Both the position numbers and the translations under genes were made by a program. A model generated the notes under the pieces. That model was not told the origin of the DNA and did no database searches. It saw nothing but the letters and a program-made list of their open reading frames with translations. Shown piece after piece: positions 3,846 to 30,784 of a stretch of DNA of 64,000 nucleotides; position 1 is the stretch's first letter, and every line of letters begins with the position of its first letter. The DNA comes from Patescibacteria group bacterium (lineage in GTDB: Bacteria > Patescibacteriota > Microgenomatia > UBA8517). The stretch lies in contig DASZQR010000010.1 in the NCBI GenBank assembly GCA_035549555.1, forward strand, positions 496,001 to 560,000, in the 5' to 3' direction.

Positions 3846-4901
3846 CTCTAATTAATTCTACCAAAGCTTTATACTGATCAATACTTTTAATTACAACTTT
3901 TGGATTATTTAACAAAATTAAATGTTTTACCCGATATGGAAGCTCACGCGAATTCAAAAAGTTTTTAGAGGCAAGAAAATTTCTCTCGTATACATAATAG
4001 CTACATAAATTATTTCTACATCTGATATTGTATTGCTTTGGATTTGCCTCTAAGATACCTGCCACAAAAGAAATATCACCATTTGTCGGATCTAAAAACC
4101 ATTTGGGGAATGATTCTGATTTCTTGGTATCGCAAACTGTGAAGTTCTCCATGCTAAATCTTGGGCGTTTTCCGTTTGTCTAATTGATCCGCCTCTTCTT
4201 GCGTATTGGTAAGCTTTTTCGTTTGGAAAAGGATCAAGCCCATATATCCAATTAATATTATCTCGATCCCCAAAGATCCATATAGGGCCCTCACACAATA
4301 TTAATCAAATACAAAAAGGTACTCTCCAAATTATTATTAGCTTCTCTAGCTAAAAGATCAAAAAATCGTACATTACTTGGTCCATATATTCTCTTGTAGA
4401 GAAAAACATAGAATTGTCTAGTCCGTACTGCAAACTTGTCCCAGCAGGCCCCTGCATCACTATTTTGCGATATTCTCTCTTCACATCGGAAACTGTATCT
4501 GCAATTGTTTTAATACGTGTCGCTACAAGTTCAAATGATTGCAGAGGTACACCTTTTGGTGTAGCAATAACTGGACGCCTCCCAAGCCGCAAAAAAGCAG
4601 CTTTTTCATCGAATGCATTTCTTCTAGCCTTGCCTAAATATGGAATAATAACATTATCCATTAACCAATCTTTGCCACTATCTGGCAATCCAAAGATTCC
4701 AACAACTCTTTGGACCTTAAGTAAACTTTGTTCTTCAAAATCAGATATCTCTTTATCAAAACTAAGAAGATCTTGAACTAAATTTAACGAATTACCTAAA
4801 AGGTCAGTAGTATATGGAAAAATTTGTAAACTAGAAGCTTTTTGCAATGCTAATTCTCTATTTGATAAATTAAACTGATTGTGTTCAACTCCTCCTATCA
4901 T
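3814..4901 (-). pseudogene. P-loop (kinase-like) protein broken by frameshifts
   Basis: Three successive frames read as one protein. 4901-4350 begins MIGGVEHNQF and carries GIFGLPDSGKDW, a Walker A-like loop; it stops just after a run of six T (minus strand, about 4355). A +1 reading continues DLLAREANNN to about 4300, a further shift gives CEGPIWIFGDRDNINW and ENAQDLAW (to about 4140), and the last frame runs MENFTVCDTKKSESF to the stop at 3814. Three single-base changes within 220 bases mean either decay or consensus errors. A nucleoside or nucleotide kinase fold is the best guess. Its ATG overlaps the kinase stop (ATGA), so the two would be translationally coupled. Confidence 0.7.
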
Positions 4902-6034
4902 CTTTTTGGCAAAGTTATCACAACTGTAGTGCCTTTTCCAAGTTGAGATTTAACTTCAATCTCTCCTTTATGAGTTTTCATAATTTTTTTGGCCAGATAT
5001 AGACCAAGCCCCATTCCGGTTTTTTTAGACGTACCTTTATAAAATCTACCAAAAATATTAGTCAAATTATTTTTCGATATCCCTTCTCCGTGATCAGTAA
5101 CAGAAATATAAAATTTCCCATTTTTTTGTTTAGTCTCAATGTCTATTTCAGAAGCTTCTGGAGAAAACTTGATTGCATTATTTAGAACATTGATTAAAAC
5201 TTCCCTTATTTTTTCTTGATCAATAAAAGTTTCAAACTCACGATTTTCGTTTAAATTATAATTAATATTTGGAGATAGTTTATCGTTTTTATACCATAAC
5301 ACAACAGACTTAATCAAATCATACAAATTAGTTCTATTAAATTTATAATGGAGCTCTCCTTTGTTATATGAATCAACTTCAAGAAATTCATTTACCAAAT
5401 AATTAACTCTTTTTATTGCACTTTTTATCTTCTCAGCGTCTCTTTTTCCGCTTTCAGTTGAAACTTTCTTAGCCAAGCTGTCAGAGTACAAAGATATTAC
5501 AGTAAGCGGAGTTTTAAGTTCATGTGAAGCAAGCGACATAAAAAGATTACGCGATTCAATAGCTTTTTTAAGATCTTCATTTAGAGTCATATTTCTTATC
5601 GCAAGTGTTGCAAGAGGTGCAAAAATCATTAATTTATCAAGTTCTTCTTCTTTTAGATTTTGTTTTTTTGATAAAATAGACAAAACCCCAACCGTCATTC
5701 CCCCATATAAAAGAGGAACAATTATCTCAGAACGTACTCCAAGAATCCGAAGCTCTGAATGGTCAGATTCTTTTGGTGAAGAAATCAAAACCGGAGTTCC
5801 ATTTTTAAAGGCAGAATAGACTTTTCCTTTCGCTCTTGCTTCAACATTATATAAAGTCCTATACGAAGAAAAAACTCTTACAGGAACTTCTTTTTTTACC
5901 AGAAAAACAGATCCGTAATCTGCATCAACCAAATTAATTGCCTCTTTTACAACAAGATGATACATCTGTTCTTTGTCATGAATTGTTAAAAAATGAAGCG
6001 CCGAGTTATATATTCTCTCCCAAACACTATCCAT
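4898..6034 (-). CDS. Soluble GAF-domain sensor histidine kinase
   Basis: About 378 aa. A GAF-like sensor (about 10-150, including VDADYGSVFLV and GVRSEIIVPLL) is followed by HisKA with the phospho-acceptor His171 (SLASHELKTPL) and an HATPase_c domain with N box (NVLNNAIKFSP), G1 (DHGEGIS) and G2 (GMGLGLYLAKK). No membrane segment is present, so it senses a cytoplasmic or diffusible signal. A longer frame to 6118 would overlap the upstream gene; ATG 6034 (MDSVWERIY) is preferred, with TATACT 12 nt upstream. The OmpR-type regulator at 7379-8050 is the nearest possible partner. Confidence 0.88.
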   Translation of the reverse strand: MDSVWERIYNSALHFLTIHDKEQMYHLVVKEAINLVDADYGSVFLVKKEVPVRVFSSYRTLYNVEARAKGKVYSAFKNGTPVLISSPKESDHSELRILGVRSEIIVPLLYGGMTVGVLSILSKKQNLKEEELDKLMIFAPLATLAIRNMTLNEDLKKAIESRNLFMSLASHELKTPLTVISLYSDSLAKKVSTESGKRDAEKIKSAIKRVNYLVNEFLEVDSYNKGELHYKFNRTNLYDLIKSVVLWYKNDKLSPNINYNLNENREFETFIDQEKIREVLINVLNNAIKFSPEASEIDIETKQKNGKFYISVTDHGEGISKNNLTNIFGRFYKGTSKKTGMGLGLYLAKKIMKTHKGEIEVKSQLGKGTTVVITLPKR

Positions 6035-6056
6035 AAATGTATTGATAGTATATATC

Positions 6057-6491
6057 CTAACCCAATATTTTTCCCAAAAGACGTGTGGACTTCTTAAATG
6101 CTTTTTCGATGTTTTCAATATCCCGCTTTCCAGTTTTTATCTGAATATTGAAAATATACGGATTATCAACTGCCCAGTTTGTCACTCCCTCATAAATCGC
6201 CTGTTTACATCCTGAATTAAGCTTAGTAATACAAAGATACTCAAGCATAATATGTTCAAACAAGTGTCCAAGCTCAGTTTGTCCACTCTCTTCTTTAAAA
6301 TTTTTGTTTTCTTCATTAAAACATTCGCATTTAAAAATACTGGGTAAGTCAGAGCTTAAAACAGGAACAGTAGCAGGAATAGATTTGGTGTTAATGTACT
6401 TTTTATAATAAACCTCCATTATTAGATTCAATTTACCATATCTAATCTTGCCATCAATTGTGAATCTTCTATCCTGGAAGTTTAATAACAT
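6057..6491 (-). CDS. Protein resembling the N-terminal domain of cyanophycin synthetase
   Basis: About 144 aa. The core ELGHLFEHIMLEYLCITKL followed by AIYEGVTNW resembles the segment 'GTWxxHvxEHvaLELQxLAG' near the N-terminus of CphA-type ATP-grasp ligases; no ATP-grasp or Mur-ligase part follows, so this is at most a stand-alone version of that domain. Function unknown. The start at ATG 6491 (MLLNFQDRRF) is chosen because TACTAT lies 4 nt upstream and a tandem CTTACA operator lies directly upstream of that; a longer frame to 6527 would run into the repeats. The gene ends 22 nt before the histidine kinase, suggesting co-transcription. Confidence 0.55.
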   Translation of the reverse strand: MLLNFQDRRFTIDGKIRYGKLNLIMEVYYKKYINTKSIPATVPVLSSDLPSIFKCECFNEENKNFKEESGQTELGHLFEHIMLEYLCITKLNSGCKQAIYEGVTNWAVDNPYIFNIQIKTGKRDIENIEKAFKKSTRLLGKILG

Positions 6492-6823: not shown

Positions 6824-7060
6824 GTGGGAATAATTTTATGGATTATTTTTGGAGGAATTGCTGGCTGGATTGCCTCAGTCATTATGAAAAGCAGCCACGG
6901 AATGATTGCAGACATTGTAATCGGAATAATCGGTGCTCTTGTTGGTGGATTTTTAATGAGCATTCTAGGTTCATCTGGAGTTACAGGACTTAATTTATAT
7001 AGCTTAATAGTAGCGGTAATCGGAGCTATCGTACTTATTTGGGTTTCAAGATTAATTTAA
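6824..7060 (+). CDS. GlsB/YeaQ/YmgE family small membrane protein
   Basis: A 78-aa protein with three hydrophobic segments and the Gly-rich motifs GGIAGWIAS and GIIGALVGGF of the transglycosylase-associated (GlsB/YeaQ) family, often induced by stress in other bacteria; the molecular role is unknown. The start is GTG, supported by GGAGGTGA 8 nt upstream. It belongs to the SD-led class of small genes and lies in a cluster with the KGG protein and the OmpR-type regulator. Confidence 0.85.
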   Translation: MGIILWIIFGGIAGWIASVIMKSSHGMIADIVIGIIGALVGGFLMSILGSSGVTGLNLYSLIVAVIGAIVLIWVSRLI

Positions 7061-7152: not shown

Positions 7153-7341
7153 ATGGGAGACGACAACGATCAAAACCAAAATAGTTCTGGAAACAGTAAT
7201 AAAGGTTTTGCTTCTATGGATCCTGACAAGCAAAGAAAAATTGCAAGTAAAGGTGGAAAGGCTGCCCATAAAAATGGCACAGCCCATGAATGGACGAGTG
7301 AAGAAGCAAAAGAAGCTGGCCGTGTAGGTGGCCAGAGGTAA
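7153..7341 (+). CDS. KGG-motif (YciG/con-10-like) stress protein
   Basis: A 62-aa hydrophilic protein with MDPDKQRKIASKGGKAAH and EEAKEAGRVGGQR, two copies of the KGG repeat of small stress-associated proteins such as YciG. It is predicted soluble and probably disordered; biochemical role unknown. The start is supported by AAAGGAGGTGAAT upstream of ATG. A strong terminator follows directly. Confidence 0.88.
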   Translation: MGDDNDQNQNSSGNSNKGFASMDPDKQRKIASKGGKAAHKNGTAHEWTSEEAKEAGRVGGQR

Positions 7342-7354
7342 CTAAAGTAAGAAG

Positions 7355-7383
7355 GGCGGCCCGAAAGGGTCGCCTGTTTTATT
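7355..7383 (+). terminator. Intrinsic terminator of the KGG gene
   Basis: GGCGGCCC and GGGTCGCC pair (8 bp with one G-T) around a GAAA tetraloop, followed by TGTTTTATT. It lies 13 nt after the KGG stop and reaches into the 3' end of the converging regulator gene. Confidence 0.88.
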
Positions 7384-8050
7384 GGTGCGCGGAATAGCCA
7401 AAACCGCGTACACTATGCAAAAGCTTTTTTGGATATTTATTATCAATTTTTTTGCGTAAATATCCAAAATATACATCAACCACTCGGCTTTCAACGTCAG
7501 CAGAATAACCCCAAATCCTATTCAAAATCATATCTCTGGAAAGAACAATTCCTTCATTATTCATCAAATATTCCAATAATTTAAATTCTTGTGGTGTAAG
7601 TTTAATTTCATTTCCGCCTCTTTTCACTTCAAACTTTTTAGGATCAAGTTCAAGGTCTCCAATTTTTAATTTATTTTCTCCAGGCACTTTTGCACGAAGC
7701 CTTGCCTTAATTCTCGCCAAAAGTTCCTCAACCTCAAAAGGCTTGGTAATATAATCATCAGCTCCAACATTGAAAAGTTTAACTTTATCCTGAGTATCTG
7801 TTTTTGCAGTAAGAACAATCACGGGAATATCTGGAAAAATTTTATACATTTCAGCACAAACACTTTCACCACTCATATCAGGAAGTCCTAAATCAAGAAG
7901 GACAAGGTCAGGTTCATGATTTTTAAAATACTCAAGTCCGGCAACTCCTTTGTCTGTTGTATATACATTAAAATCATTCTCTGTCAAAAAATCTTTAAGA
8001 TATTCGTTAATGTCCTTATCATCCTCAATAACAAGAATGCTTGGAATCAT
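7379..8050 (-). CDS. OmpR/PhoB-family response regulator
   Basis: A 223-aa DNA-binding regulator. The receiver domain (1-115) has acidic D10/D11, phospho-acceptor Asp53 (LLDLGLPD), Thr81 and Lys103 (ITKPFE). The winged-helix Trans_reg_C domain (about 128-221) has LTPQEFKLLEYL and RVVDVYFGYLRKKI with a C-terminal RGFGY. It lies 12 nt downstream of the flavin operon on the same strand, but a TATACT hexamer ends 6 nt before its ATG, giving it its own leaderless promoter. Partner kinase probably 4898-6034; target sites probably the 11-bp CTTACA repeats nearby (both inferred). Confidence 0.93.
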   Translation of the reverse strand: MIPSILVIEDDKDINEYLKDFLTENDFNVYTTDKGVAGLEYFKNHEPDLVLLDLGLPDMSGESVCAEMYKIFPDIPVIVLTAKTDTQDKVKLFNVGADDYITKPFEVEELLARIKARLRAKVPGENKLKIGDLELDPKKFEVKRGGNEIKLTPQEFKLLEYLMNNEGIVLSRDMILNRIWGYSADVESRVVDVYFGYLRKKIDNKYPKKLLHSVRGFGYSAHQ

Positions 8051-8062
8051 GAAAGAAGTATA

Positions 8063-9550
8063 TTAAAAACCTGGAAAATAATCCACTTTAACATTTTGTT
8101 TCGATAAACCAATGTTGTTTAGTTCTTTTTGAAAACCAGTAACCATTCCATGTGGGCCAGATAGATAAAAAATCCTATCTTTATAATCTGGAATCTCTTT
8201 TTTAATATCTGTTCCAATCATATGGCCCTGTTTTTCAGTTTCAAAATAAATTATCTTAAGCCCTATCTTTTTCTTTGCTTCTTTAAAAACATCTTTATAA
8301 ACCATTTCTCTTTTATTTTTTTCAAAGTACACCAAAACAACATCACATTTTTCTTTTTTGTCAATTAAATATTTAATAATGCTGCGATACGGCGTCACTC
8401 CAATTCCCCCAGCAACAAAAACAAGTTTCCTTTCTGCATTTTCTTTTAATGTAAAATCTCCAGCTAAATTTCCAGCGATTATCTTATCTCCATTTTTCAT
8501 TTCAAGAAGTTGTTTTTTATAACTGCTTAATACGCGTTTTGGAAATTTTATTCCAATCCTCAAATCATTTTCAGTAGGGCTGGAAGAAATTGTAAAATAC
8601 CTTCTATTTCCTCGAGAATCGGTATTTTTATGTCCAAAAGTCCATTCCAGATATTGCCCAGCAGTGAAATTTATTTTCTTGTTTGACACAAACACAAAAT
8701 CATAAATATCTGAAGTTAATTTTATCTTCTCTTTCAATTTAAGTGTCAATTTTTCTTTAGGACTTACCAAATAGGAGAAAACGTTTCCAATAGACAAAGC
8801 AATTTCAGGTGTAGTATAAAACCTTCCAAAGTAAAGTGGTGCAAATAAAAGTCCAACAAACACTCCATATAACGCCTGCAAGTTTGCAGTCGGCGGTGTT
8901 GTAAGTGGTTCTGTAAGCATCACAAATGCAAAAAATAATATTGGCGAATCCAAAAAAGTATTTTCAACTATCTTTAAGATTTCAAAATCTCCTCTACTAA
9001 AATAAACCATAAAAGTAGAAATCAATGCTCCTACAAAAAAATAAAATACTAGTGATTCTCTTCTTATTTTTCGCACAATCAAAAAACCAAGAAGCAAAAA
9101 CGGAAACATCCATCTGGTTGCAATCCACCATGACGCAAAACCATTTATCGTAAAAGCAGTAATCACCAAAGCAATTGCTGCCGGGTTAAAAATATGCTTT
9201 CCCTTAATATTTAAAATATATTTTGCAAGCATTGATAAGATTGATGCAAAAATTAAAAATTCAATTTTTGAAACGGCAAGACCAGGAGTAATAATCAAAA
9301 CAAGTATTAAAGCTGTAATCAAAAATGACTCATAATTCGTTTGTACTTTAAATAAATAGGCAAAAAATTTATTTGCCACATAACTAACTGCAACTAAAAT
9401 AAAAGTTGAAACAATAAGCTCATTAGGGCCAAAGGGCAATACGTGAAAGATACTATATATAAAGGCTATAAAAAGAAGCCCAATCAAATAATAAAGTACC
9501 AGACGGTACATTGTTATTGAATTCAACAAATCATCAATTTTAGTTAACAT
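8063..9550 (-). CDS. NqrB/RnfD-like membrane domain fused to ferredoxin-NAD(P)+ reductase
   Basis: A 495-aa fusion. Residues about 15-260 are polytopic and carry KHIFNPAAIAL and LTEPLTTPP, hallmarks of the NqrB/RnfD membrane subunit; no SGAT flavin-attachment motif is seen in this part. Residues about 265-495 form an FNR module: RRYFTISSSP (316-325, FAD), GGIGVTP (381-387, nicotinamide side), YLSGPHGMV (462-470). It should pass electrons from NAD(P)H through the membrane to an acceptor outside, plausibly the flavinylated protein at 10257-10688. The start ATG 9550 overlaps the apbE stop by 11 nt; a longer frame to 9595 is less likely. Confidence 0.85.
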   Translation of the reverse strand: MLTKIDDLLNSITMYRLVLYYLIGLLFIAFIYSIFHVLPFGPNELIVSTFILVAVSYVANKFFAYLFKVQTNYESFLITALILVLIITPGLAVSKIEFLIFASILSMLAKYILNIKGKHIFNPAAIALVITAFTINGFASWWIATRWMFPFLLLGFLIVRKIRRESLVFYFFVGALISTFMVYFSRGDFEILKIVENTFLDSPILFFAFVMLTEPLTTPPTANLQALYGVFVGLLFAPLYFGRFYTTPEIALSIGNVFSYLVSPKEKLTLKLKEKIKLTSDIYDFVFVSNKKINFTAGQYLEWTFGHKNTDSRGNRRYFTISSSPTENDLRIGIKFPKRVLSSYKKQLLEMKNGDKIIAGNLAGDFTLKENAERKLVFVAGGIGVTPYRSIIKYLIDKKEKCDVVLVYFEKNKREMVYKDVFKEAKKKIGLKIIYFETEKQGHMIGTDIKKEIPDYKDRIFYLSGPHGMVTGFQKELNNIGLSKQNVKVDYFPGF

Positions 9551-10250
9551 ATTTTTCAAACCCTTTTGTAAAAGTTGCAAATCCTTTCTTATCAATCATA
9601 TAACCTTCCAAATGGTTTTTCTTTTCCAAAAATTTTATTCCCTCAAACCCCATTGCAAATAAAGGTGTAGCAAATCTATCAGCTTCATAAACATTTTTCC
9701 CAATCACCGTCAAACTTACAATTTCACTGTTAGATTTCCCAAGTGGATTATATATATGATTTCCTTTTTCATAATTTCCGCTGGTTGCAATTCCTTCTCC
9801 AGAAAGTTGCACAATTTTTATAATCTGATTTCTATTAAAAGGATTTTTAACCCCCACTTTCCATTTTTCGTGAGCCTCATTTAATCCATGGGTTTGTATA
9901 TCCCCGCCTGCTTCAATATAAAAATCTTTATATTTCATTTCCTCAAGAATTTTAGATGCCTCCCAAATCGCCCAACCTTTTACTAATCCTGATGGGTCAA
10001 AAGTTCCCTCATAAAACACATCAAAATATCCATTTGTATCTTTTTTTGTTTGCGCGCATTGTTTTAAAATTTGTTTTAAATCTTTATCTTCAAAGTTAAG
10101 TTTGGTTACTTCACTATTTTGTTTGTAAGGGCTAAACTTCTCATCAACCCATCCAAAATACTCAAAAACTTTCTCAAAAGGTTTATTCTTTTTTTCACCA
10201 ACAATTTCAACTATTACAGGCATTCCCATAATAAATCGCATCTGCTTCAT
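9540..10250 (-). CDS. apbE: ApbE-type FAD:protein FMN transferase
   Basis: A 236-aa protein with the ApbE signatures FDPSGLVKGWA, EAGGDIQTHG, GIATSGNYEKG and DRFATPLFAMG. ApbE cleaves FAD and attaches FMN to a Thr in SGAT motifs of extracytoplasmic redox proteins. No signal peptide or lipobox is seen at the chosen ATG, unlike many secreted homologues. It lies between the FMN-binding protein (6-nt gap), which has an SGAT motif, and the NqrB-FNR fusion, so enzyme, target and electron donor are encoded together. Confidence 0.9.
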   Translation of the reverse strand: MKQMRFIMGMPVIVEIVGEKKNKPFEKVFEYFGWVDEKFSPYKQNSEVTKLNFEDKDLKQILKQCAQTKKDTNGYFDVFYEGTFDPSGLVKGWAIWEASKILEEMKYKDFYIEAGGDIQTHGLNEAHEKWKVGVKNPFNRNQIIKIVQLSGEGIATSGNYEKGNHIYNPLGKSNSEIVSLTVIGKNVYEADRFATPLFAMGFEGIKFLEKKNHLEGYMIDKKGFATFTKGFEKYVN

Positions 10251-10256
10251 AAGAAG

Positions 10257-10688
10257 TTAAATTTTTGCCTGATTAAGCGCATCCTGAAGAGATTGAATAA
10301 ATCCTTGTGTATCTTGTGTTGCGCCGCTTACTATATTTACATTTGCACTTTGTGCTGCAATTGCTTCTTGCTTTAAAGCTGGCTGTGCCATTGCGGTAAC
10401 TTCAGCTGTATGCCCTGGCCCGCTCGGAAAATCAACATACTGAATGTCAGTTATTTTTCCACCAGAAATAACAACTTTGACCTGTATATTTCCATATTGA
10501 GAAGCACTTCCAACTACTCCAGTATAAGTTCCGTCTTTATAACTTGCTGGCGTATTATTTGTTGTTTCTAAATTTGCAGAATTACTATTATCAGTTGTTG
10601 AAGGTTCATCTGATTTGTTCATTTTATAAAACAAAGCAAAACCTCCAATTACTGCCACGGCAACTAATGCAATAATTACTTTTTTCAT
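10257..10688 (-). CDS. Membrane-anchored FMN-binding domain protein (flavinylation target)
   Basis: A 143-aa protein with an N-terminal membrane anchor (3-20), a low-complexity Ser/Asn/Thr linker (25-50) and an FMN_bind domain (52-143). The motif NIVSGATQDT places Thr124 as the likely covalent FMN site. One FMN domain only, facing outward. It is the first gene of the flavin operon and has a TAGGAT-like -10 about 7 nt before ATG. It probably carries electrons from the NqrB-FNR fusion to an external acceptor; the acceptor is not evident. Confidence 0.88.
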   Translation of the reverse strand: MKKVIIALVAVAVIGGFALFYKMNKSDEPSTTDNSNSANLETTNNTPASYKDGTYTGVVGSASQYGNIQVKVVISGGKITDIQYVDFPSGPGHTAEVTAMAQPALKQEAIAAQSANVNIVSGATQDTQGFIQSLQDALNQAKI

Positions 10689-10744
10689 AAGATTTATCCT
10701 AACTGAAGAAATATTATCTCGTCAACTCTGAAAAAATCCTGAAG

Positions 10745-27012: not shown

Positions 27013-28296
27013 ATGATAAATCGCATCAAAAACGTGATTCTTTCTCACAAGCGCATTGCTGTTGTTCTTGCTTTAATCATAATTGCAGTTTTCGTGTTCA
27101 CACGCTCGCGAAGCGGCGCAAATAAAGTTACTTATGAAACAGCAACAGCAACTCGAGGTACGCTAATCTCAAGCGTCACAGCTTCAGGAACAATTGTTGC
27201 AACCAATAATATCGATGTCACATCAACCGCAAACGGCCAGGTAAATAAAGTTTATGTAAAAGAAGGAGATCAGGTTACAAAAGGCCAAAAATTATTCAAT
27301 ATCACTTTAGATGCAACTGGCCAGCAAAGAGAAGCCCAAGCTTACTCATCTTATTTATCAGCTCAAAATAGTGTAACTTCAGCAAACGCAAGTTACTACA
27401 CACTACAAGCATCTGAATTTAGCGCAAATCAAAAATTTATAAACGATGCAGTCGCAAGAGGACTTGCAACAACTGATCCAACATATATTCAGGAAAATGA
27501 TGCATGGCTTGCCGCCCAAAGCAATTTTAATAACGCCCAAAATTCAATTAGTTCTGCCCAAGCAAATTTAACTAATGCAAGTATTGCTTATCAACAAGCA
27601 TCTTCCACAATTGTTGCTCCAGTCTCAGGAACTATTCAAAATATTACAGTTGTTCCGGGAATGGCAATTACCAATTCTACAACCACAAGTAGTTCAGGAA
27701 ATTCCACAAGTTCGGTAACTGTTGCATCAGTTGAAACTCCAGGAAATCCTGTCGCTACTGTCTCAATAGCAGAAGCTGACGTTGATAAAGTGAAGGCAGG
27801 CCAAAAAGTAACTTTAACTTTTGATTCAATTGCAAACCAGACTTTTACAGGAGTTGTTGCCGGCATTAATAAATTAGGAACAACAAGCTCTGGGGTTACA
27901 AATTATCCTGCAACTATCCAATTTGATAGCGGATCAGATTCAATCTTGCCAAACATGACAGTTGAGGCAAGTATTATCACAGATATTAAAGATAATGTAA
28001 TTACAGTTCCAACTTCTGCAATAACAACTCAAGGAGGAAATAAAGTTGTCAGGGAACTTAAAAACGGTCAACTCGACTTTGTACCAATAACAATTGGCGA
28101 AGCTTCCGACACTGATACTGAAATTGATAGCGGAGTAAACGAAGGCGACACAGTTGTCACAGCTATCATCAATCCATCTGCAAGTACAAGTACAGGAAAC
28201 ACAACTTCTCCATTTAGCGGCAACAGGGGTGGTGTAGGAGGATTTGGCGGAGCGGCTGGAGGCGGCAATGTCAGAGTCTTCACGAGAGGAGGTTAA
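27013..28296 (+). CDS. MacA/HlyD-type periplasmic adaptor of an ABC exporter
   Basis: 427 aa. Membrane anchor (about 12-29), lipoyl-like half (DVTSTANGQVNKVYVKEGDQV), long helical hairpin rich in Ala/Gln/Asn (about 104-195), second lipoyl half (TIVAPVSGTIQNITVV), beta-barrel and membrane-proximal domains, and a Gly-rich tail (GGVGGFGGAAGGG). It would link the MacB-like permease to a substrate outside. CPR cells are thought to lack an outer membrane, so it probably acts as an extracellular subunit. First gene of a four-gene operon; leaderless start. Confidence 0.9.
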   Translation: MINRIKNVILSHKRIAVVLALIIIAVFVFTRSRSGANKVTYETATATRGTLISSVTASGTIVATNNIDVTSTANGQVNKVYVKEGDQVTKGQKLFNITLDATGQQREAQAYSSYLSAQNSVTSANASYYTLQASEFSANQKFINDAVARGLATTDPTYIQENDAWLAAQSNFNNAQNSISSAQANLTNASIAYQQASSTIVAPVSGTIQNITVVPGMAITNSTTTSSSGNSTSSVTVASVETPGNPVATVSIAEADVDKVKAGQKVTLTFDSIANQTFTGVVAGINKLGTTSSGVTNYPATIQFDSGSDSILPNMTVEASIITDIKDNVITVPTSAITTQGGNKVVRELKNGQLDFVPITIGEASDTDTEIDSGVNEGDTVVTAIINPSASTSTGNTTSPFSGNRGGVGGFGGAAGGGNVRVFTRGG

Positions 28297-29031
28297 ATGG
28301 CAACATCTCCGATCATTCATCTCTCCAAAATTTCAAAAATCTACAACACAGGGGTAGTGGAAACTGTCGCTTTAGACAATATTTCCTTTGACATTCAAAA
28401 AGGAGAATTTGTCGCTATCATGGGTCCTTCAGGTTCTGGAAAATCAACATTAATGCATATTATTGGAGCGCTTGATACTCCGACATCAGGAAGCTATATC
28501 CTCGATGGCGAAGAAGTAAGTAAATTAACAGATGACGAATTGGCAAGCATTCGAAACCGCAAAATTGGTTTTATTTTCCAGGCCTTCAATTTACTTCCAA
28601 GGCGCACTACTTTACAAAATGTAATGTTGCCAATGTTTTATGCTGGCGTCGAAGATGAAAAAGCAAAAGAAATTGCAGCAAAATATCTTACTCTTGTTGG
28701 TCTTGGAAATAGGCTTAGTCATACAAGTAATCAATTATCGGGCGGTCAAATGCAGCGTGTCGCAATTGCTCGTTCTCTTGTAAATAATCCTGCAATTCTT
28801 CTTGCAGATGAGCCAACTGGAAACATTGCAAGTAATCAGGCAGAAGAAGTTATGGCAATTTTCCAAAAATTAAATAATGAAGGTCACACAGTCGTCATGA
28901 TTACTCACGAGCCCGATATTGCAGAACATGCCAAAAGGGTAATCATGATTAAAGACGGAAAATTAATTTCAGATAAGAAAAATGCAAAACAAAAAATAGC
29001 CAAATTAAAAGTAGAAAACGATAGCATATAA
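28297..29031 (+). CDS. MacB/LolD-type ABC transporter ATPase
   Basis: 244 aa with Walker A GPSGSGKST (43-51), Q-loop FIFQAFNLLPRRT, signature LSGGQMQR, Walker B ILLADEPTGN and H-loop MITHEPD. It powers the FtsX-like permease next to it (2-nt gap). The start ATG directly follows the adaptor stop, and GAGAGGAGG just upstream is a good Shine-Dalgarno, as expected inside an operon. Confidence 0.95.
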   Translation: MATSPIIHLSKISKIYNTGVVETVALDNISFDIQKGEFVAIMGPSGSGKSTLMHIIGALDTPTSGSYILDGEEVSKLTDDELASIRNRKIGFIFQAFNLLPRRTTLQNVMLPMFYAGVEDEKAKEIAAKYLTLVGLGNRLSHTSNQLSGGQMQRVAIARSLVNNPAILLADEPTGNIASNQAEEVMAIFQKLNNEGHTVVMITHEPDIAEHAKRVIMIKDGKLISDKKNAKQKIAKLKVENDSI

Positions 29032-29033
29032 AT

Positions 29034-30266
29034 ATGAAAAACAATTTCCAATTTAAACTTATAGAAGAAGCAATCGGCACACTATTTATAAATAAACTCC
29101 GAACAGGTCTTGCTATGCTTGGAATTGTTATTGGCATTGGTTCTGTTATTGCATTAGTTTCTTTGGGTCAGGCTTCTCAGGAAGCAATTCAGTCTCAAAT
29201 CCAATCTCTTGGAGCTAATTTGCTTACAGTCCAGCCAGGAGCAGCAACAACTGGTTTTGTCCGTGGAGCTGCAGGCGGAAGTACCACTCTAACAAACGAT
29301 GATGCAACTGCAATTGCAACAGATCCAACAGTCTTAGATGTACAGACAGTTTCTCCAGAATTATCAGGAAGGTCACAAGTTTCAACAGCTGGAAACAATA
29401 GCAACACTCAAATAATTGGAGTGACAGATACATATGCAGGAGTTCATAATATTCAAATTCAGGAAGGAAATTTTATTTCTTCAGACGAAGTTTCAAATCA
29501 AAGTAAAGATGCAGTTATCGGCCCAACTGCTGCAAGCAACATTTTTACAGATGGCAGCGATCCAGTTGGCCAAAAAATAAGAATCAAAGGCCAGATTTTT
29601 ACCATTACAGGTGAAACAGTAAGTAAAGGTGGAACAGGTTTTAATAATCAGGATGATGTAATTTATATTCCCCTTTCAGTTGCCCAAAAAGAAATTTTCG
29701 GCGAAAATTATTTAAGCGCCATTTCTCTTCAGGCAAAATCAAGCGATGTCATGACAGCTGCGGAAAATGAAGTTGGTTATTTATTGCTTACTCGCCATAA
29801 AATTGATGATCCAACAAAAGCAGATTTTACAATTTTGTCACAAGCAGATATTTTAGGAACAGCTACAGCAGCTACAAGTACATTCACCACTCTTCTTGCC
29901 GGTATCGCAGCAATTTCATTAATTGTTGGTGGAATTGGAATTATGAATATCATGTTAGTAACAGTAACTGAAAGAACTCGAGAAATTGGTTTAAGAAAAG
30001 CTCTCGGCGCCAAAAAATCTATTATTATCCAACAATTCCTAATTGAATCAATTATTTTAACTTTCACAGGCGGAAGTTTAGGAATAGTTCTTGGAGTAAT
30101 GGCATCTTTTCTCTATTCAAAAATAAACAATTCTGTCTTTTTCATTTCTCTTCCTTCGATTCTTATTGCTTTTGCAGTTTCAGCCTGCATTGGCGTTTTG
30201 TTTGGCTGGTATCCAGCGCGCCGTGCAGCGTCTCTGCAACCAATCGAAGCCTTAAGATACGAATAG
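29034..30266 (+). CDS. MacB-type ABC permease (MacB_PCD + FtsX)
   Basis: 410 aa. First membrane helix (about 20-45, LRTGLAMLGIVIGIGSVIAL), a large extracytoplasmic MacB_PCD domain (about 50-270) and three C-terminal helices of the FtsX fold, including GGIGIMNIMLVTVTERTREI and FGWYPARRAA. With the preceding ATPase and adaptor it forms a complete MacAB-like exporter. Substrate unknown; such pumps handle peptides, antibiotics or lipoproteins. Confidence 0.93.
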   Translation: MKNNFQFKLIEEAIGTLFINKLRTGLAMLGIVIGIGSVIALVSLGQASQEAIQSQIQSLGANLLTVQPGAATTGFVRGAAGGSTTLTNDDATAIATDPTVLDVQTVSPELSGRSQVSTAGNNSNTQIIGVTDTYAGVHNIQIQEGNFISSDEVSNQSKDAVIGPTAASNIFTDGSDPVGQKIRIKGQIFTITGETVSKGGTGFNNQDDVIYIPLSVAQKEIFGENYLSAISLQAKSSDVMTAAENEVGYLLLTRHKIDDPTKADFTILSQADILGTATAATSTFTTLLAGIAAISLIVGGIGIMNIMLVTVTERTREIGLRKALGAKKSIIIQQFLIESIILTFTGGSLGIVLGVMASFLYSKINNSVFFISLPSILIAFAVSACIGVLFGWYPARRAASLQPIEALRYE

Positions 30267-30273
30267 ACTACAG

Positions 30274-30296
30274 CCCTGAGCGTAGTCGAATGGGGG
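30274..30296 (+). promoter_or_regulatory. Leader CCCTGAGCGTAGTCGAATGGGGG with SD
   Basis: CCCTGAGCGTAGTCGAA resembles a short palindromic-type sequence found dispersed in many bacterial genomes; its end merges with GGGGGTGAT, the Shine-Dalgarno of the next gene. CCC and GGGG can pair across it. Similar leaders precede 38014 and 50741. Confidence 0.4.
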
Positions 30297-30304
30297 TGAT
30301 AATT

Positions 30305-30784
30305 ATGAAAAATAAAAATTTAATAATTGTTGGAGTAATAGCTTTAGTAATTGGAGGAGCAGCAGGTTTTTTCGGCGGTATGAAATATCAGGAAAGTAAA
30401 GCAACTACAGCAAGAAGTCAATTTGCAGCTAATTTCGGCGGCGGAGCCGAAGGAAACGGCGCAACCCGAAGGTTTGGAAGTGCAAATGGCGGAGCAAATG
30501 GTATGGCAGTACGCGGTCAAATCATAAGTGCAGATAATAATAGTATTACAGTCAAATTAAGCGACGGTAGTACAAAAATTATCATTCTTGGAAGTTCTGC
30601 AATGATTGCAAAAACAACAGCAGGAACTGCAGCTGACTTAACAACTGGCCAGGAAGTTACCATTTTTGGTACAACCAATTCAGACGGTTCAGTTACAGCA
30701 ACTAATGTTCAAATTGGAAACGCGGGAATGTTTGGCGGACCTCGTCCATCAGGCACACCAGCAGCAAGTCCAGCAGGATACTAA
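30305..30784 (+). CDS. Membrane-anchored DUF5666-like protein
   Basis: 159 aa from ATG 30305 (MKNKNLIIVG). N-terminal anchor (about 5-22), Gly/Ala/Asn-rich linker, then a small beta domain (about 68-145) with VRGQIISADNNSITVKLSDG and GQEVTIFGTTNSDGSVTA, typical of DUF5666, and a Pro/Ser/Ala tail. A longer frame from GTG 30290 is less likely because GGGGGTGAT sits 4 nt before ATG 30305. It is the last gene of the exporter operon and could be an accessory or substrate-like protein. Confidence 0.75.
   Translation: MKNKNLIIVGVIALVIGGAAGFFGGMKYQESKATTARSQFAANFGGGAEGNGATRRFGSANGGANGMAVRGQIISADNNSITVKLSDGSTKIIILGSSAMIAKTTAGTAADLTTGQEVTIFGTTNSDGSVTATNVQIGNAGMFGGPRPSGTPAASPAGY

Follow-up and report, generated by a model that had tools for sequence, protein, structure and literature searches.

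The NQR/RNF-like flavinylation system has been described in two studies (Méheust et al. 2021 eLife, PMC8238504; Huang et al. 2024 mSystems, PMC11334425), and the sections of these papers searched here already place candidate-phyla bacteria in the class and remark on the missing threonine of the membrane subunit. Actinobacteria and the candidate phyla radiation (CPR) are named in the searched parts of the original description (PMC8238504), and the example modelled in those of the later study (PMC11334425) is a Ktedonobacter. The usual picture of CPR bacteria is one of fermenters without respiration, and a reductase able to discard NAD(P)H electrons outside the cell would ease their redox balance.

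The window analysed here is a stretch of 64,000 nucleotides from the genome of a Patescibacteria group bacterium (1.01 Mb, 96% complete). All three open reading frames of the flavin electron-transfer operon proposed in a preliminary description of this DNA were found on the minus strand, near-touching or overlapping, and Pfam searches recognized each of the expected domains (Table 1). The fusion protein adjoins ApbE and FMN_bind, and it thus falls inside the five-gene limit by which the NQR/RNF-like class is defined. The same description had a two-component regulator following directly; an OmpR-type response regulator is indeed the next gene on the strand and is likely co-transcribed with the trio, but the adjacency is rarely kept elsewhere. 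It was seen at two other independent loci (L036 and L193/L081), so a role for the regulator as a system component is unsupported. Promoter-like sites in the consensus scan were hardly more numerous than in shuffled sequences, and the candidate upstream of the FMN_bind start serves as a lead only. Beyond the regulator, small Transgly_assoc and KGG stress-type genes sit between it and a GAF-histidine kinase. A MacA-ABC-MacB-DUF5666 cassette lies 17 kb from the operon in the window; at L033, L034, L036, L065 and L110, the same cassette is separated from the fusion by about 5 kb at most.

Table 1. Positions of the operon genes, their neighbours and features compared at related loci (window coordinates unless a locus or genome is given).
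Feature	Position	Strand	Remarks
FMN_bind protein, membrane-anchored, 143 aa	10257..10688	-	PF04205 3e-8; motif N118-I-V-S-G-A-T124
ApbE FAD:protein FMN transferase, 236 aa	9540..10250	-	PF02424 1.5e-34; no signal peptide or membrane segment
NqrB/RnfD-like membrane domain (~residues 16-280) and FAD/NAD(P)H reductase (280-510), one protein	8063..9550	-	PF03116 (NQR2_RnfD_RnfE) 6.9e-8; PF00175 (NAD_binding_1) 7.6e-10
OmpR-type response regulator	7379..8050	-	PF00072 + PF00486; 13 nt downstream of fusion
Candidate promoter TTGACG-18-TAGGAT	10696..10725	-	Consensus scan; just upstream of FMN_bind start
Transgly_assoc and KGG stress-type genes	6824-7060 and 7153-7341	+	
GAF-histidine kinase	4898-6118		
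MacA-ABC-MacB-DUF5666 cassette	27013-30784	+	
Stand-alone reductase domain	G000:C10:719811-720497		Outside the window
Anchored cupredoxin-fold protein	L038:6455-6862		Genome without FMN_bind/ApbE
Anchored cupredoxin-fold protein	L040:5854-6267		Genome without FMN_bind/ApbE
Anchored cupredoxin-fold protein	L091:6026-6526		Genome without FMN_bind/ApbE
Anchored cupredoxin-fold protein	L105:5529-6008		Genome without FMN_bind/ApbE
Anchored cupredoxin-fold protein	L210:3444-3953		Genome without FMN_bind/ApbE
Anchored cupredoxin-fold protein	L211:3533-4045		Genome without FMN_bind/ApbE
Anchored cupredoxin-fold protein	L217:5523-5930		Genome without FMN_bind/ApbE
Anchored cupredoxin-fold protein	L220:3633-4058		Genome without FMN_bind/ApbE
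Anchored cupredoxin-fold protein	L223:5721-6206		Genome without FMN_bind/ApbE
Carrier with Ser in motif	L178:5532-6047		Genome G412, without ApbE

The fusion was first read as a TTG-started frame of 510 residues (8063-9595), in which the ATG at 9550 is residue 16; the protein very probably starts at this ATG, since the fusions of relatives begin there. In the 510-residue frame, the N-terminal PF03116 and C-terminal PF00175 matches both exceed the curated cut-off, with PF03116 strong only across the second half of the membrane domain. The predicted structure (pLDDT 93, pTM 0.89) resembles the reductase domains of NqrF and flavohaemoproteins over residues 280-510 (Z 25-27; NqrF FAD domain Z 25.6), and RnfD (8rbq_D) was also matched at Z 23.4. 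Because the Foldseek and VIA structure-match lists consist mostly of reductase-domain matches, the membrane fold was assigned from 8rbq_D and from a profile search of the PDB, in which the membrane part matched only RnfD and NqrB (6e-6 and 3e-5). Both PF03116 and this profile uphold the NQR2/RnfD-like identity first suggested for the membrane part. In the profile alignment, the fusion has TEP (228-230) where RnfD and NqrB have TDP, and residues 212-274 of NqrB have no equivalent, their place being taken by a short loop of about 15 residues. The flavinylated residue of NqrB, Thr236, falls inside that stretch, in keeping with the earlier remark that the membrane part has no SGAT motif of its own.

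The SGAT site pointed out at Thr124 of the FMN_bind carrier is the threonine of V-S-G-A-T, and the full motif fits D-x-x-[ST]-G-A-[ST] except for Asn in the place of Asp. Asn occupies this position in 16 of the 78 motif-bearing carriers of the set, and a D-to-A change there has been reported to have a minor effect only. The best match of its AlphaFold model (pLDDT 78) is 8p2a, a flavinylated FMN domain with 44% identity, and the PplA profile gave a weak match. An N-terminal helix (residues 2-23) forms a hydrophobic anchor, and such a segment was detected in 78/82 carriers; by charge difference, 74 carriers are oriented N-in/C-out versus 2 in the opposite sense (n = 84). Between anchor and domain runs a linker of which 77% is S, T, P, A, G, N and Q, and a lipobox is present in the two actinomycete carriers.

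Fusion loci of relatives were gathered by an alignment-based scan of contigs, a single-sequence scan having given no matches. Among 56 relatives, 11 have a full-length fusion, 5 FMN_bind and 6 ApbE, and the genomes with FMN_bind or ApbE all lie within the 11 (chance 1e-4 and 1e-5, respectively). At the level of the phylum, about 60 of 380 genomes carry the core fusion, approximately one in six of the species sampled, and the 61 loci from these 380 genomes have FMN_bind and/or ApbE alongside in 45 cases, a cupredoxin in 5 and neither in 11. Both flavin genes are present at 37 of the 45 flavin-type loci, FMN_bind alone at 7 and ApbE alone at 1. By the preliminary description, related genomes lacking one of the three genes would speak against its reading, and this is partly the case: at least one flavin gene accompanies the fusion at 45/61 loci, but 16/61 lack both. 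Whole-genome searches covered thirty genomes, and those with a cupredoxin or no partner had neither ApbE nor FMN_bind elsewhere; together with these 16 loci, this indicates that the fusion forms the core, with the flavin pair as one output module. The trio also occurs in Chloroflexota (Dictyobacter, Ktedonospora, Ktedonobacter, Anaerolineaceae) and Actinomycetota (Kitasatospora, Williamsia), and the survey of gene order showed FMN_bind-ApbE-fusion to be kept across CPR, Chloroflexota and Actinomycetota, so the cluster is not due to chance. The comparison favours the early suggestion that the three genes form one system in which electrons leave through the flavin of the separate FMN protein, as PMC8238504 and PMC11334425 also proposed.

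Some relatives depart from this arrangement. A second trio subfamily (L037, L208, L215, L118 and others), with several loci from Saccharibacteria or actinomycetes, has a longer ApbE (~285-310 aa) and a carrier motif of GSS/GAS type, not SGAT. At L190 and L095, a partnerless fusion is followed by genes for a DsbA-like thioredoxin protein and a VKOR-like protein, and a link to disulfide chemistry is possible. Free copies of the fusion-type reductase domain are common in the phylum, and a copy akin to the fusion's C-terminal part lies outside the window (Table 1).

At nine loci in an 85-row tree, FMN_bind is missing and an anchored cupredoxin is encoded no more than 600 bp away from the fusion. 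Of these nine, seven belong to one 12-row clade (SH-aLRT 99) nested among flavin-type rows, the remaining five rows of which are partnerless, and L091 and L210 are placed elsewhere; by parsimony, three flavin/copper changes are needed on this tree. A cupredoxin stands beside the fusion in 8/21 non-flavin genomes; under a simple model of random placement, 0.6% would be expected per genome (6e-13). The cupredoxins of L210, L211 and L223 carry the Cys-His-Met type-1 copper motif, and those of L038, L040, L091, L105, L217 and L220 are His-only, with PHPxHT and YHNH-like motifs and no Cys; a redox role for the latter is doubtful. The membrane domain of the copper group is altered as well, with T228 replaced by I/V in 10/14 and P263 by L in 13/14. 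Copper nitrite reductase was considered as the acceptor in these relatives and was set aside, the NirK model having no match above cut-off. The searched parts of PMC8238504 and PMC11334425 make no mention of relatives with a cupredoxin partner. If functional, the swap would mean that the membrane domain rather than the flavin carrier defines the system.

We read the trio with good confidence as a one-way NAD(P)H:extracytosolic-flavin electron exporter of the NQR/RNF-like class, a reading supported by its agreement with the published model for the class. As to cofactors, electron direction and final acceptor, we infer that FAD in the cytosolic reductase domain would take electrons from NAD(P)H and that these would cross singly via one or more flavins bound non-covalently in the NqrB/RnfD-like membrane domain, which would act as an NQR/RNF return arm working in the outward direction. 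They would exit onto FMN attached by ApbE and held covalently at Thr124 of the carrier on the outer face, and the acceptor would be encoded elsewhere than nearby, with Fe(III), quinone, thiol and O2 as candidates. Haem-copper oxidase subunit I (COX1) is absent from the window genome. The RnfA/RnfE/NqrD/NqrE family (PF02508), whose paired members hold the intramembrane Fe-S cluster of NQR/RNF, gave no match above cut-off in the window genome or in 25 further genomes, one of which (G001) has a sub-threshold fragment, and consequently the two-way path of NQR/RNF cannot be assembled.

It is also conceivable, though somewhat unlikely, that the fusion serves as an assimilatory or protective metal reductase, reducing Fe(III) or Cu(II) outside the cell via the FMN protein or, in relatives, the cupredoxin, and not as an outlet for fermentation electrons. 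VIT1 iron transporters in six published clusters of the class, according to the consulted part of the original description (PMC8238504), would fit such a role, and a His-only cupredoxin resembles a metal binder more than a blue-copper electron carrier. However, no metal transporter is encoded among the scanned neighbouring genes, and Cupredoxin_1 has no match in the window genome.

The location of flavinylation is the second matter on which the comparison bears. In the catalytic and metal motifs of ApbE, H165, D191 and T195 do not vary among 55 relatives, and none of the 55 distinct partner sequences from three bacterial phyla has an N-terminal hydrophobic segment, signal or lipidation site. 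Loss of a signal through a miscalled start was ruled out, since frames read from stop to stop still gave 0/55; the starts mostly lie a few residues ahead of an MGMP-type core. Because ApbE has no export signal, we infer from the sequences that FMN would most likely be loaded in the cytosol, either ahead of Sec translocation or in the course of it. Cytosolic ApbEs have been described for substrates that remain inside the cell, and a seven-residue motif suffices for the enzyme (PMC12052999), so the substrate need not be folded and the enzyme could plausibly act on an unfolded chain. Export by Tat of a carrier already folded and loaded was rejected as a general route, as no twin-arginine motif was found in 90 carriers and TatC is missing from 15/19 flavin-type genomes, the window genome among them. 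We therefore put forward, tentatively, a joint proposal in which cytosolic ApbE would flavinylate the unfolded or nascent carrier and Sec would pass the loaded chain, making both FAD export and Tat unneeded, and in which the membrane-reductase core would be swappable, its carrier having been replaced by anchored cupredoxins about three times.

Against cytosolic loading it could be argued that ApbE is exported by a route that needs no signal and flavinylates outside as in other bacteria, given that classical ApbEs act there and that an ApbE knock-out was not complemented by a cytosolic version of the enzyme (PMC12052999). We consider this unlikely: the lack of a signal in 55/55 partners from three phyla is hard to reconcile with a need for export, and flavinylation outside would demand export of FAD too. 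Genome G412, rated 100% complete, has a carrier with Ser in the motif beside its fusion and no ApbE in the whole genome, and this carrier counts against the FMN-exporter explanation. The main texts of PMC8238504 and PMC11334425, as searched, do not mention a leaderless ApbE with an exported substrate. Such a pair raises a testable question on where flavin is covalently attached, also in culturable Chloroflexota and Actinomycetota.

Inward flow, with the FMN protein gathering electrons outside and the fusion making NAD(P)H, is very improbable, as reduction of NAD(P)+ by an ordinary-potential flavin is uphill, no RnfA/E or NqrD/E homologues are available that could charge the outer FMN and no enzyme that could serve as an external donor is encoded nearby, even though the NqrB/RnfD arm does carry electrons from outer FMN inwards in NQR/RNF (PMC12174285).

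The exporter proposed here can be set against several known systems. With the flavin-based extracellular electron transfer of Listeria (PplA, FmnB), the trio shares an anchored flavinylated carrier outside the cell. The membrane electron donor in Listeria is a different protein from the fusion. The ApbE-like FmnB works outside the Listeria cell and is supplied with exported flavin (PMC9973259). The cytosolic ApbE that serves the soluble fumarate reductase of Klebsiella resembles that of the window in having no signal peptide, but acts on a substrate that remains cytosolic (PMC12052999), whereas the window enzyme has an exported substrate. Na+-NQR and RNF have in common with the trio the NqrB/RnfD-like and NqrF-like domains, an anchored FMN carrier like NqrC/RnfG and ApbE. 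Unlike them, the window genome has no RnfA/E or NqrD/E homologues, joins the domains in one fused protein in place of separate subunits and encodes a membrane domain without a site for covalent FMN, which points to a single crossing of the membrane versus two in NQR/RNF. With the NQR/RNF-like system there is no difference of substance: both have the fusion of an NqrB/RnfD-like domain to PF00175, an FMN_bind partner and ApbE, and both lack the threonine for covalent flavin. The window trio belongs to this published class, and the new points are the leaderless transferase and the exchange of the flavin carrier for a cupredoxin.
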